Source: an uncultured Saprospiraceae bacterium
GTDB taxonomy: Bacteria > Bacteroidota > Bacteroidia > Chitinophagales > Saprospiraceae
Direction: 5' to 3'
DNA: 64,000 nucleotides
NCBI GenBank assembly: GCA_938015435.1
Contig: CALLPN010000002.1
Location: forward strand, 248,001 to 312,000
Part shown: one piece after another, positions 14,546 through 23,714 of the stretch
Position numbering within the stretch: position 1 is the stretch's first letter
Layout: each line of letters starts with the position of its first letter
Position numbers and translations under genes: made by a program
Notes under the pieces: model-generated
Databases searched by the model: none
What the model was told of the DNA's origin: nothing
What the model saw: the letters and a program-made list of their open reading frames with translations, nothing else

Positions 14546-14677
14546 TTGCGACGCTATAAATTTTTTGTTATCCCTGCAATACTTATTTAATGCAAATAAT
14601 ACAACTTCCTTGTGCATGTAAATATTAAAATCGCTAGCTTGAGTAAATTATCATCTATTTTAACAAATTAGTTATCA

Positions 14678-15586
14678 ATGCGAAATATAATTTTAGGGTG
14701 CTGCATATCAATTTTACTTTCTGGTTGCTTTGAGCAGAAGAAACCAAAAGAACTATCCCTTAGCTTATTTGACAATAAGGAAAATATTAGTAAGTTCATT
14801 TACTCATTTGACATAGAGGGAAAAGGAGATGTTGTGATTGATAAAACTAAATTTGGAAATCTATTTACTCTAGAGAGACAAAAAAAAAACAATCTAAACT
14901 CTACATATCTAATTACCCCAGATACAACGATAATATTTAGTCCGGAATTTAAACCTGATGGTAATGCGGCTTCGATATTTCCAATAATTGGACTAACTGC
15001 AAATATTGTTATCGACAATAATGGAAAATTAAAAGAAGTGCTAAATGAAGAAGAAATAATTAAAGAATATGAGAAAAGGTTAGATTTTATGTCTTCAAAT
15101 AAAAGAATGATTCAATTACAAAAAATGAAAGACGGAGGAATTGATGTTTTTCTAGAATCATTATTTACGCTAAATTACAAATTCCTATTTTCTGACCTTA
15201 ATCAGTCTTTGCAACTACAAGAAAAAAATACTTCAGACAGTTTTATTTCAGCTACTCCTACAAGCCCTAAATCAAATATCAAAAGAATAAAAGAAGTTAA
15301 ATTTGAAGACAATCATTTTCATATTTCTACTCAGACATTAACTACTTCTGAATTATTTAGGATAGAGGAAGGAGCTGATAATTATACAGAAATATTACCT
15401 TTCCATACCAATCAAACATATAAAATTATAGCCGATTCAACAGGGTTAATAACTAATATCGAACTTAACATAAATTCAAAAACAGGAGGAGCGAATCGAC
15501 ATTCTACTAAAAGTGATCATATCGAGCCTATCATGATTGAAACGACCGAGTATCGCAATGTGAAATATAAGAGATTGAAATATTAA
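14678..15586 (+). CDS. Hypothetical lipoprotein
   Basis: 302 aa. It begins with a lipoprotein signal peptide (lipobox LLSGC, Cys17), then a mainly beta-strand, Lys/Asn-rich domain with an internal helical stretch (EEEIIKEYEKRLDFM) around residue 120. The Cys+2 residue is Glu; the final membrane location is not certain. It resembles uncharacterised DUF6263-like Bacteroidota lipoproteins, but I do not claim membership. It stands alone, divergent from the Rrf2 gene. Confidence 0.75.
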   Translation: MRNIILGCCISILLSGCFEQKKPKELSLSLFDNKENISKFIYSFDIEGKGDVVIDKTKFGNLFTLERQKKNNLNSTYLITPDTTIIFSPEFKPDGNAASIFPIIGLTANIVIDNNGKLKEVLNEEEIIKEYEKRLDFMSSNKRMIQLQKMKDGGIDVFLESLFTLNYKFLFSDLNQSLQLQEKNTSDSFISATPTSPKSNIKRIKEVKFEDNHFHISTQTLTTSELFRIEEGADNYTEILPFHTNQTYKIIADSTGLITNIELNINSKTGGANRHSTKSDHIEPIMIETTEYRNVKYKRLKY

Positions 15587-15700
15587 TAATAGTATTAATA
15601 CAAGAATAATACATTCTTATATTCAATCTTTAACATCTAGAAAGCAATGAAGTTAATGAGTTCTGTAAGAATAAAACGAATGTCAAAACATTAACACGCA

Positions 15701-15729
15701 GACCAAGGCCTGGTCTCTCCTTCAGGAGA
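15701..15729. repeat. Two adjacent palindromes downstream of purL
   Basis: GACCAAGGCCTGGTC (15701-15715) is followed by TCTCC-TTCA-GGAGA (15716-15729). They lie about 45 bp after the purL stop on the minus strand and may act as its 3' hairpin. The CAGGAG core recalls the other palindromic elements. Confidence 0.5.
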
Positions 15730-15774
15730 TCAAGAGGTTCTATTACGAAACATAATACGAATCTCAAAAAAAAA

Positions 15775-19576: not shown

Positions 19577-19723
19577 ATGATATGATTTAGATAGCGGAAT
19601 TTATATCTGTTCAAAATAATACTAATCTACATTCTATCATTTTAAGATTAGATATAAGGAGTATGATTACAATAGATGCTTTCCCAAGTACGACTATTCT
19701 TCATACAAAATTAAGATACTACA

Positions 19724-19900
19724 TCAACTACCAACATTCATTAGTAATCTCCAGTCTATCGACCAATATATAGTCATCTGAATCAAGAGTCTATCATACT
19801 TGATTTCTTTGGTATAAACATGACGATTATCAAAATATTCAACGTCTTCTATCTGATGGGGTTTATAAGTAAATGATTTTCTACTCTTTAAAACTTCCAT
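19724..19900 (-). CDS. Small hypothetical protein at the end of the RlaP cassette
   Basis: 58 aa from the ATG at 19900. The peptide is charged, with FTYKPHQIEDVEYFDNRHVY and a Trp-rich end (YWSIDWRLLMNVGS). No family is recognised. It lies 50 bp downstream of the nucleotidyltransferase gene in the same direction and could be the fourth gene of that cassette, but it is short and could be chance. Confidence 0.3.
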   Translation of the reverse strand: MEVLKSRKSFTYKPHQIEDVEYFDNRHVYTKEIKYDRLLIQMTIYWSIDWRLLMNVGS

Positions 19901-19950
19901 TCCAATTATTATTTTTTTAAAAAAAGTCAAAAAGGAATATATACGAAATG

Positions 19951-21042
19951 TTAATTAACAAGTTCTACAAATGGGTTACTAGGATTTACATCCTCATACA
20001 AACTCTCACGTATCTGATAAGCAATCTTCTGTATACTCTCCACATCAGGCTGATCAGGTAAATCGGAACTCATAAACACTTCTTCCATTTTTATTTTTTT
20101 CTTCTCAGCCAAAGCCAATAAGTAATCGAATTCAAACGAACCCGACTTTACGTTAAGAAGAAATTCTCTATCATCTCTTTTTACATTTACAACTCCCTGT
20201 TCTGCAATCTCAATTGCCATTTCCAATAACCGAAATGTATGCATCATATTCTTAGAATCGTACTTTTTACCATGACTCTGAGTATTCTCATATCTCGCTT
20301 CATTTCGATTCTCTACCCAATCCCAATATTCTTTGTAATCCTTACAGTATCTCGAGTAACCATTGACGTTAAAATAGAGTATTCGTTTCTGAATCTCTCC
20401 CTTAGGAATAGAACTCAAGGAAACTGTATGTGAATTTTTATTTTTCATAACACCTTTATAACCATGTTCAGAGCTATAGTACAATCCATACAAATCAGTC
20501 ATATGGGAGATTTTGGCCAATCCACAATTTTCTTGTTTCCATCCGTTTAGCTCAAGATATTTACTCAATTGTAATGAGCCATTATCATTATTTACATAGC
20601 AAAATTCGAGAACTGATTTTCTCACTTTACTTACGGGATTAACAATCTTCTTCTTCAAACCCTTCGCTTTTTTAATCTGAGACAAAGCAAATTTTCCAAA
20701 GCTTTTTTCACATAGCTTTGATAGTACCGTTTCTGACTTTAACAGATCTAGTATTGGATGCTTATAGAGAACAGCATGCTTAGGAGTAGCCAACAATTCT
20801 AATATATTGGGATTATTAACAGAAAGCAATTCCATATATCGACCTAGCTCATAATATACGATATCGTTAGTCTCATTACTAATTTGAGGAATATAGTTCA
20901 AGCTATAAAAATCAGACTTCGGCAAAACAAATACTCCTTTAATATCTGTATCCGAAGATGGCGTTTCTAATCCATAAGCTCTACTCCCACTTATACACTC
21001 CAAGATGATTAGGTTTCGATTTTTGAGGTCCTCAATTGTCAT
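19951..21042 (-). CDS. RlaP-like nucleotidyltransferase (Pol beta superfamily), copy 1
   Basis: 363 aa. The N-terminal nucleotidyltransferase core has GSRAYGLETPSSDTDIKGVF (~19-38): the Gly-Ser of the hG[GS] motif and the D-x-D metal ligands, with a third acidic position in DIVYYELGRYMELL (~67). A helical C-terminal region follows. Family knowledge: COG3541/RlaP proteins transfer nucleotides and are often found with RNA ligases in RNA repair operons. Its start overlaps the end of the upstream paralogue by 11 bp, so the two are translationally coupled. Substrate unknown; no RNA ligase is in this window. Confidence 0.82.
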   Translation of the reverse strand: MTIEDLKNRNLIILECISGSRAYGLETPSSDTDIKGVFVLPKSDFYSLNYIPQISNETNDIVYYELGRYMELLSVNNPNILELLATPKHAVLYKHPILDLLKSETVLSKLCEKSFGKFALSQIKKAKGLKKKIVNPVSKVRKSVLEFCYVNNDNGSLQLSKYLELNGWKQENCGLAKISHMTDLYGLYYSSEHGYKGVMKNKNSHTVSLSSIPKGEIQKRILYFNVNGYSRYCKDYKEYWDWVENRNEARYENTQSHGKKYDSKNMMHTFRLLEMAIEIAEQGVVNVKRDDREFLLNVKSGSFEFDYLLALAEKKKIKMEEVFMSSDLPDQPDVESIQKIAYQIRESLYEDVNPSNPFVELVN

Positions 21043-21802
21043 ACTTCGCTACGTATTTTTTAAATAATAAATTGAGAAGTTCTAAGTTACCATTAGCTGA
21101 AGTAAGCATATTCTTATTCTCTTCCGCTTGTAAGATACAGTCTTCTATAAGTGATACTAACTCAGACTCTCCCTTATGAAAATAGGACTCTTCAATAGTA
21201 CTTTTAATTGCAATCAGTTTTTCAATCCGATCTACAAGAGTGCTTTCAATATTAAGGTTCTTATAAATTTCATGAAACTCAATTGGAGGCATTTCATCTT
21301 TTTCAACAATCCACTTACAGACCATTGCTGATCTAAGGGTATAGAAAAAACTTTTTAGCTTATATTCTTCATTTGACTTCAGTTGTTCCAAAAATTTCTT
21401 CGCCATACTTAGATAGTGATGAATAGTTGCCACCTTTGAATAAAACGAGTGTGAGACTTGAAGAAATTCTTCAATAAAGTCATCATCCGCTCGATAAACT
21501 ATCGGAGATTGCAATCTTTCTAATAAAGCGGGATTGGACTTCCTCAACAAGTTACAGGCCTTCTTAAGATCCCAGCCCGCTATATCTATATCGTTATTAT
21601 CCAACATCAGTTCAATACTATCTTTCTGCTCTGATAGATTGAGATACCATTCATTTCTATTGACGTAGATCAGTCGAATATCATAGTCGCTATCCCTTGA
21701 CGCAAATCCCCAAGCTCTGGAACCTGTCTCTACCGCCCAGAGAACCTTAATTCTATGTTTAGCCTCTAGATCACATATATACTTCTTTATCCTTTCAGTC
21801 AT
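21032..21802 (-). CDS. RlaP-like nucleotidyltransferase (Pol beta superfamily), copy 2
   Basis: 256 aa. The catalytic core is intact: TGSRAWGFASRDSDYDIRLI (~26-45) gives Gly-Ser and D-x-D, and NNDIDIAGWDLKKA (~69-82) gives the third carboxylate. The rest is helical (HYLSMAKKFLEQLKSNEEYK). It is clearly related to, but diverged from, the 363-aa neighbour: only the motif region and overall layout match. Ten bases separate it from the upstream primase-like gene. Two different RlaP-type enzymes in one operon suggest either two substrates or a heteromer (inference). Confidence 0.82.
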   Translation of the reverse strand: MTERIKKYICDLEAKHRIKVLWAVETGSRAWGFASRDSDYDIRLIYVNRNEWYLNLSEQKDSIELMLDNNDIDIAGWDLKKACNLLRKSNPALLERLQSPIVYRADDDFIEEFLQVSHSFYSKVATIHHYLSMAKKFLEQLKSNEEYKLKSFFYTLRSAMVCKWIVEKDEMPPIEFHEIYKNLNIESTLVDRIEKLIAIKSTIEESYFHKGESELVSLIEDCILQAEENKNMLTSANGNLELLNLLFKKYVAKYDN

Positions 21803-21811
21803 CCTTTCTAA

Positions 21812-22498
21812 TTATATGAATTTTGGAATATAACCTCCTTGGGTACATCCAGGCATGGGTAATAATTGATCACCCGTCTGATCTACATCTAGCGTCATTA
21901 TTCCTTTGTAAAATATATTCTTATACTTTTCTTCTATCTTCTTAATCTCAACCAATACATGAAACCCTCCTCTCGTTTCTAATATAGTAACACAATCCCT
22001 ATTAATAAACGGGTCAAGTTTACTTGGATCGAATGGTTTATAATCGATATCAAAATCGAGGTAGACCTTATTGCCTACACTTCTTTGAATACAACCCATC
22101 AGTTCGGACATCGGATTAAAAGATTTTTTATCATCTCTCAATAACTTTGTAAGCTCAATGATACTATTATATGTGGCCTTTAATAAGCTTCGTGGATTAG
22201 GATTGATATATAGAGCCAATGACTGTTCCTCCACAGATTCACCATATAACTTATACCCTCCTTGTGCTATCTCAAGTTGCCTGATCTTATCCAGCATCCT
22301 CTCTTTATCTGTAAGAAACCTCTTTAACTGTCCTTTATCATTTTTCATTTTCCAATCTTCAGCGTACTTCTTTCTAGAAAACAAAGTGCAATAAAACTTT
22401 TCGTTCTCACCCAAAACAGGGAGCCATTCAATGAACTCTGTAAGAATTTTTTCATCCTTTATTATTTCGTAATTCATATTTATTGATTTCAAAAACAT
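21812..22498 (-). CDS. Archaeo-eukaryotic primase-like (AEP/PrimPol-type) protein
   Basis: 228 aa from 22498 (the ATG at 22477 is an alternative). The C-terminal half carries all three AEP motifs: YLDFDIDYKPFD (hhhDhD, ~145), ETRGGFHVLVE (the s-x-H motif, ~180) and TLDVDQTGDQLLPMPGCTQGG (~203-222; here given in part) with the PG-T/C-x-GG end seen in replication-type primases. The N-terminal ~100 residues are helical and unrecognised. AEPs make primers or fill gaps with nucleotides. It is the first gene of the cassette with two RlaP-like nucleotidyltransferases. No helicase or replication initiator is fused to it. Confidence 0.7.
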   Translation of the reverse strand: MFLKSINMNYEIIKDEKILTEFIEWLPVLGENEKFYCTLFSRKKYAEDWKMKNDKGQLKRFLTDKERMLDKIRQLEIAQGGYKLYGESVEEQSLALYINPNPRSLLKATYNSIIELTKLLRDDKKSFNPMSELMGCIQRSVGNKVYLDFDIDYKPFDPSKLDPFINRDCVTILETRGGFHVLVEIKKIEEKYKNIFYKGIMTLDVDQTGDQLLPMPGCTQGGYIPKFI

Positions 22499-22539
22499 TC
22501 AAAATAGAACTATTCAACTACTTTTTTCAGCCGAGTTAA

Positions 22540-22614
22540 TTATAGCCGCTTCTCTTGCGCTTCTAAAAAGACTCCAAAGACTACTATTAAAAATAATATA
22601 AAAACCTGTTTCAT
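22540..22614 (-). CDS. 24-codon orphan signal-peptide-like ORF
   Basis: ATG at 22614, stop at 22540. The peptide is a near-perfect Sec signal sequence (KQVFILFLIVVFGVFL, then EAQEKRL) with the A-Q junction common in Bacteroidota, ending seven residues later. It sits 41 bp upstream of the AEP-like gene in the same direction. It may be the remnant of a secreted-protein gene or a small membrane peptide. Confidence 0.3.
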   Translation of the reverse strand: MKQVFILFLIVVFGVFLEAQEKRL

Positions 22615-22832
22615 TTGTTATTTTTTTTTCAAACTAAAAATATACATATATAGATATTTCGACGAAACTTACTCTTGCGAAAACGCAGCCAGTCCAATCT
22701 CATTGAAATCACTAATGATTCGAAAAGATAAAAGAGCATTCATGATTATAATCGTTACAAAACGATACAGATTAAACCGTAATTAGTTAGATCATATTTC
22801 ACTTTACGCTCTCTTTATAACGCTATAACAAC

Positions 22833-23714
22833 TCACTCCCCAAACTCCTTATAATCGACAGACGGATCATAATCCTGCTTCGTAGAAATCGAGTGCAACT
22901 CACTCCTCTCATCTTTGGATCTGATTAGTGGAAAAAACAATTGTACATACCAAGGTTCTTTCATTTGATTCCAAGCTCCAAATCTTGTCGGGTACTGACG
23001 AGTGATCTTTGCAGTACCAAATATTATATCCCAAATAAAAAGCAGATTACCGTAATTTCCATTAGGATGAGAGATGCCATCTTCAGCAGTCAATCCATGG
23101 TGCGCAAAATGTGTACTGGGCGTAGAGATCGTTCTTTCAATTATCCAAGCCAAAGGTGAAAGAACTTTGTATTGATATAGAAACCTATCCCACTTCGTCT
23201 CGCTATGAGCCAACAATATAATTATCAATTTGATCGGCAAATAGAAAAGGTATATGTAACCCATTCCTAAATAAACCAAGGCTGCCGAAAACCAGATACC
23301 CGGCATCAACGCATAATACATCATCGAATTCCTGTAAGTTACCAGCACTCCCATTTCCTCTACTACATGATGAGGTCTATGTAGTTTCCACATCTTTGTA
23401 CTCACATGAGAGAGACGGTGCCACCAATATTGTGTCATATCGTCCAAAACAAGAAAAGCTAATAAATGCCACCAAATAGAAGTTCCGACAAAATAATCTT
23501 CAAGCACTGGAAAACCTGTACCTAATCCCCACAAAACCACTAGAAATATTCCTGGCTGAATCAAGGTCGGTAGCGTTACAAGACTCAGTAACTCGATAGT
23601 AAAATCGTTCTTTGTTCTTTTGTCCTCAAAATATAATCCTCCGATAGATTCTATAACTCCAAGAATAAGTAATACTACTGCAGGTATGAGTTTGCTAAGG
23701 GCCTGATCTTCCAT
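22833..23714 (-). CDS. Sterol desaturase / fatty acid hydroxylase superfamily protein
   Basis: 293 aa integral membrane di-iron oxygenase. The His boxes are all present: HRLSH (~98-102), HRPHH (~112-116) and HFAHH (~204-208), with a further NGNYG near 219 typical of the family. About four to five membrane segments are seen (AVVLLILGVIESIG, GIFLVVLWGLG, WWHLLAFLVL, YLGMGYIYLFYLPIKLIIIL). Members hydroxylate or desaturate lipids or carotenoids; the substrate here is unknown. It is monocistronic and followed by the cassette in the same direction after 200+ bp. Confidence 0.9.
   Translation of the reverse strand: MEDQALSKLIPAVVLLILGVIESIGGLYFEDKRTKNDFTIELLSLVTLPTLIQPGIFLVVLWGLGTGFPVLEDYFVGTSIWWHLLAFLVLDDMTQYWWHRLSHVSTKMWKLHRPHHVVEEMGVLVTYRNSMMYYALMPGIWFSAALVYLGMGYIYLFYLPIKLIIILLAHSETKWDRFLYQYKVLSPLAWIIERTISTPSTHFAHHGLTAEDGISHPNGNYGNLLFIWDIIFGTAKITRQYPTRFGAWNQMKEPWYVQLFFPLIRSKDERSELHSISTKQDYDPSVDYKEFGE

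Follow-up and report, generated by a model that had tools for sequence, protein, structure and literature searches.

An accessory cassette of a predicted AEP-fold polymerase and two RlaP nucleotidyltransferases in a Saprospiraceae genome, with a probable role at damaged RNA ends

The window analysed here, a stretch of 64,000 nucleotides from an uncultured Saprospiraceae bacterium, contains three tightly spaced ORFs on the minus strand, encoding an AEP-fold protein and two RlaP-type nucleotidyltransferases, R1 and R2. The features of the locus are as follows:

21812–22498, minus strand: AEP-fold protein, 228 aa; ORF with DFDID (motif I), TRGGFH (motif II) and VDQTGDQLLPMPGC (motif III region)
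21032–21802, minus strand: R1, full-length RlaP, Pol-beta-type nucleotidyltransferase gene, 256 aa; Pfam PF10127, phrog_14344
19951–21042, minus strand: R2, divergent RlaP, Pol-beta-type nucleotidyltransferase gene, 363 aa; Pfam PF10127, phrog_388
19724–19930, minus strand: 68-aa ORF with a TTG start, probably not a gene
19621–22832, no strand assigned: 3.2-kb accessory insertion, from blastn against congener region L270
15775–19473: purL, one flank of the insertion
22833–23714: fatty-acid hydroxylase gene, the other flank of the insertion

A first-pass annotation had described the tight spacing and the 11-bp overlap of R1 and R2 correctly, but the gap between AEP and R1 is 9 bp rather than the 10 bp it gave. 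The small fourth gene that it considered possible at 19724–19930 was rejected because the ORF starts with TTG, has no Pfam match, and has no homologue in the loci searched.

The proposal that the cassette is an accessory insertion is borne out by an empty site in a congener (G002). Blastn blocks against this genome (L270) stop at window position 19620 and restart at 22833, yet are separated by only 6 bp in L270, where purL adjoins the fatty-acid hydroxylase gene; compared with G002, the window thus carries the cassette as an insertion of 3.2 kb. The G+C content of the insertion (33.0%, versus 36.3% for the window) is a value within the range that the window itself spans. Searches of three congeners gave no AEP, no defence gene was recognised in the cassette, and besides the AEP gene and the RlaP pair the insertion holds only short ORFs. 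One of these, a 24-codon minus-strand ORF at 22540–22614, is signal-peptide-like when translated by eye. Next to purL, a further segment of about 1.2 kb (14548–15774) is likewise missing from L270; it contains a 302-aa plus-strand ORF (14678–15586) without a Pfam match.

The 228-aa protein has no match in Pfam, PHROGs, NCBIfam, or PADLOC; 550 homologues were found. Its predicted model (pLDDT 94.4) aligns best with AEP primases in the PDB, in agreement with the fold first proposed for it, and on this model it belongs to the AEP superfamily. It contains the DxD, H, and third acidic residue that we take to be AEP motifs I–III, and the earlier reading that all AEP motifs are present holds up across its relatives: D150, D152, H180, and P214 are kept in 44/44 aligned rows and the third acidic residue, D206, in 36/44. 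The D206 position is occupied by T or M in the other eight rows, for example in Chryseobacterium (L064) and a viral contig (L120), where the substitution suggests, judging from sequence, that the active site may be changed. The protein is a single domain, with no helicase, zinc, or PriCT part of the kind that marks replicative primases and PrimPols, either fused to it or encoded alongside it in the insertion.

R1 and R2 were proposed to be two different RlaP enzymes with intact GS and DxD residues, and both points were verified. Matches to Pfam RlaP (PF10127; curated cut-off 23 bits) are strong for R1 (E 4.7e-70, 236.5 bits) and clear for R2 (E 6.7e-20, 72.3 bits), while their best PHROG families differ (phrog_14344, E 1.4e-62, and phrog_388, E 1.5e-47, respectively). 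Both carry the GS...DxD nucleotidyltransferase motif, with residues G27, S28, D39, D41, and D73 of R1 (30 rows) and G19, S20, D31, and D33 of R2 (32 rows) kept at 95% or more. In the window's genome (89% complete) PF10127 finds just these two proteins. It is present in 118/398 genomes of the family, and by our own tally of the table 65 of these 118 have two or three matches. RlaP occurs in 32 of 35 fetched loci, the other three having AEP alone, and 28 contain both R1 and R2. R2 follows R1 on the same strand in all 28, with spacing that runs, on longest-ORF starts, from a 44-bp overlap to a 96-bp gap, and the two genes overlap or lie at most 3 bp apart in 25. As most of these loci were chosen because a family scan showed two neighbouring matches, they describe the form of the pair and not its frequency. 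Two of the 28 (L245 and L246) were fetched via AEP; among the neighbours shown for the other 26, fetched via an RlaP match, there was no AEP and no constant neighbour. A scan of viral contigs with R1 found no relative.

The linked order AEP-R1-R2, with overlaps or gaps of a few bases, was found in three genomes: that of the window, G611 (locus L245) and G775 (locus L246), the last two from other genera of the family. L246 and L003 are both 87,695 bp long and apparently represent one contig. Recurrence of the same order in two other genera indicates that the arrangement is not due to chance. The linked trio accounts for three of the 20 family genomes in which AEP and RlaP are both present; G794 lay outside this check, and many of the contigs are fragmentary. 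AEP and RlaP are on different contigs in most of these genomes. Single-sequence searches of 149 AEP loci, many of them cut by contig ends, found R1 and R2 in 11, R2 without R1 in 10, and neither in 128. Given the three genomes of 20 and the 26 R1-R2 pairs without AEP nearby, the suggestion of one fixed system of AEP plus two RlaP enzymes is not supported. There seem instead to be two units, the R1-R2 pair on one side and, on the other, an AEP family that stands on its own and has repeatedly come to lie with RNA-repair genes.

The AEP family is a patchy chromosomal gene, present in 26/398 genomes of the window's family and in 2/395 genomes of a phylum-wide draw (the window's genome and G327). 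The latter tally was lowered from 3/395 after a fusion candidate in G404 (920-aa frame, E 8.9e-5) was rejected, as it reads like a sensor histidine kinase. AEP scans gave 73 genome loci and 76 loci on viral contigs of up to 597 kb. In a phage collection, tblastn of the AEP protein matched 5/50,697 records. Two of these are Chryseobacterium phages, both larger than 213 kb, and the other three are metagenomic phage records, the longest of 735 kb.

Immediate same-strand neighbours of AEP were tallied for 123/149 loci (26 near-duplicates or fragments were dropped by eye; 150/153 proteins were used). Among the 150 proteins RlaP (8) and RNA_ligase (5) rank first and second of 117 families, followed by aldose epimerase (4), R2K ATP-grasp (3), and LRR (3), with helicase-type families occurring twice each. 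In a comparison made within these loci as a control, with Chryseobacterium left out, RlaP or RNA ligase makes up 4/119 adjacent versus 1/524 non-adjacent genes in bacterial loci, and 8/114 versus 7/1037 in viral loci. Representative ligase neighbours are of the T4 Rnl1, Rnl2, and PHA02142-OB kinds; in a set of similar viral contigs that includes L123 and L129, AEP is followed downstream, within 2.5 kb, by a ligase gene of the T4 Rnl1 type. A search of 50 of the 76 viral loci found RlaP in 13 of the 50 records, in eight of which the two genes are no more than 2 kb apart, where record lengths would lead one to expect 1.0. In Chryseobacterium loci AEP occurs with R2 and mostly R1, alongside varying Thg1, AAA_33 kinase, TROVE, and R2K ATP-grasp genes. 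A protein family, cluster c2, of which the member tested has no Pfam match, also adjoins AEP in these loci, and a 176-aa relative lies beside AEP and R1 in L212 (G327 C54:367500-382500). In an AEP tree of 129 rows (128/149 loci plus the window protein), 30 rows have a sought repair gene within 2.5 kb, a distribution needing at least 14 changes, and 99 have none.

At the level of whole genomes, RlaP is present in 20/26 AEP genomes of the family versus 98/372 others. The raw co-occurrence test (p 3.4e-7) was dropped in favour of a stratified one, since large genomes tend to have both genes and genome size therefore confounds the comparison. RlaP was found in 11/11 AEP genomes versus 24/39 others at 7 Mb or more, in 2/4 versus 22/43 at 6–7 Mb (no excess), and in 7/11 versus 52/290 below 6 Mb, giving a Mantel-Haenszel odds ratio of 6.0 (p 1.6e-4), a statistic that ignores the kinship of genomes. 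Genomes of 6 Mb or more were listed by eye and all others, including 10 without a listed size, were counted as below 6 Mb. Pfam recognised no RNA ligase in the insertion. For ligases, the search of the window's whole genome covered PF09414, with no match, and RtcB, which is encoded on another contig.

RlaP relatives are found in phages and bacteria, and by Pfam score and active-site motif R1 and R2 belong with the RlaP of RNA-repair systems (PF10127; Iyer and Aravind 2021, PMC7824862). The locus differs from those systems in that two different RlaP genes overlap as a pair and are joined by an AEP gene, without a ligase at the locus. The RNA-repair section of that jumbo-phage review names RlaP, Thg1, CCA enzyme, ligases, and TROVE, and no AEP (PMC7824862). 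Burroughs and Aravind 2016, as relayed in PMC5862659, proposed that divergent AEP domains act in RNA repair; these are described there as parts of multidomain proteins found primarily in kinetoplastids. The window AEP shares that proposed role and differs from this description in being single-domain and of bacteria and phages. The abstract of the 2016 study reportedly describes a distinct RNA-acting prim-pol domain family with Dicer-like proteins in kinetoplastids. In the portions of the literature searched (including PMC7824862, PMC5862659, PMC4431377, and PMC6514570) no report of the AEP family in RNA repair was found. Within those portions an RNA-repair role for a single-domain AEP of bacteria and phages looks new, and Burroughs and Aravind 2016 may already list the family.

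We consider it fairly probable that the accessory three-gene cassette repairs damaged RNA ends, with the AEP-fold protein as a predicted polymerase and the two RlaP proteins adding nucleotides. The observations beneath this reading are the model fold, the conservation of the catalytic motifs, the insertion, an R1-R2 pair that is conserved and in most cases overlaps, and recurrent linkage of AEP to RNA-repair genes, and from these we infer all enzymatic steps. As AEPs are polymerases and RlaP has a proposed place in RNA repair, it is most economical to suppose that AEP would extend RNA 3' ends with a template. RlaP has been proposed to restore lost nucleotides ahead of ligation (PMC7824862, section 3.4.9). 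An RNase, for instance a toxin or phage-triggered nuclease, would cut tRNA or another RNA whose ends are then nibbled; R1 and R2 would put back one or a few 3' nucleotides template-free; and AEP would lengthen the 3' end against the intact paired strand. Because none is present at the locus, the ligase sealing the break must come from elsewhere, and here would probably be RtcB.

By analogy, this putative division of labour among AEP, RlaP, and ligase resembles the way in which LigD pairs a polymerase with a ligase for DNA end joining, moved to RNA. In LigD the polymerase domain (2r9l) works on DNA as part of a fusion with a DNA ligase, whereas the substrate proposed here is RNA. A broader and distinctly tentative extension is that the single-domain primase-polymerase family of bacteria and giant phages may be an RNA-templated RNA gap-filler which, with RlaP tailing and a ligase, would perform LigD-like RNA end joining.

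An unlikely alternative is that AEP is a DNA enzyme, a primase or translesion PrimPol belonging to mobile elements, and that its proximity to RlaP is a by-product of a shared phage and accessory habitat. The nearest solved folds are indeed those of replication primases and PrimPols, half of the AEP loci are in viral contigs, and the 99 tree rows without a sought repair gene point the same way. Identity to RepB' primase (3h20) and the cyanophage S-2L PrimPol (6zp9) is 9–11%, and the insertion has no replication partner genes. Against a DNA enzyme, the window AEP lacks the fused parts noted above, the commonest neighbours are RlaP and RNA ligases and not replication genes, the viral records place RlaP inside 2 kb of AEP at a rate well above that expected from their length, and in the family AEP is a patchy chromosomal gene.

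We regard as rather improbable a module related to defence or toxin-antitoxin systems, in which the nucleotidyltransferases would cap or tail tRNA or proteins and so stop or restart translation. Its location in an accessory insertion would suit such a module and R1 weakly resembles the MntA antitoxin adenylyltransferase, but at 19 bits against an NCBIfam MntA cut-off of 60 R1 falls outside type VII toxin-antitoxin systems. PADLOC yields a single weak match (E 0.021), the insertion has no other ORF of at least 130 aa to serve as toxin partner, the RlaP match is full-length, and RNA-repair genes are among the neighbours of AEP relatives. Still more improbable is a chance joining of the R1-R2 pair and the AEP gene as accessory units with no functional link. 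The 26 pairs without AEP alongside and the separate contigs of AEP and RlaP in most family genomes with both would agree with it, yet the same tight order in three genera and the recurrence of AEP-RlaP linkage in Chryseobacterium and viral contigs speak against it.

The locus as first observed is thus confirmed and its earlier interpretation partly supported, a likely role on RNA ends gaining support as a prediction. The two RlaP kinds make up a conserved gene pair that stands alone in many places. An AEP family that general domain, phage, and defence collections do not recognise emerges as probably taking part in RNA repair in bacteria and large phages, and its small single-domain form makes the substrate testable. 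Should it prove active on RNA, its task would be to mend RNA instead of copying DNA.
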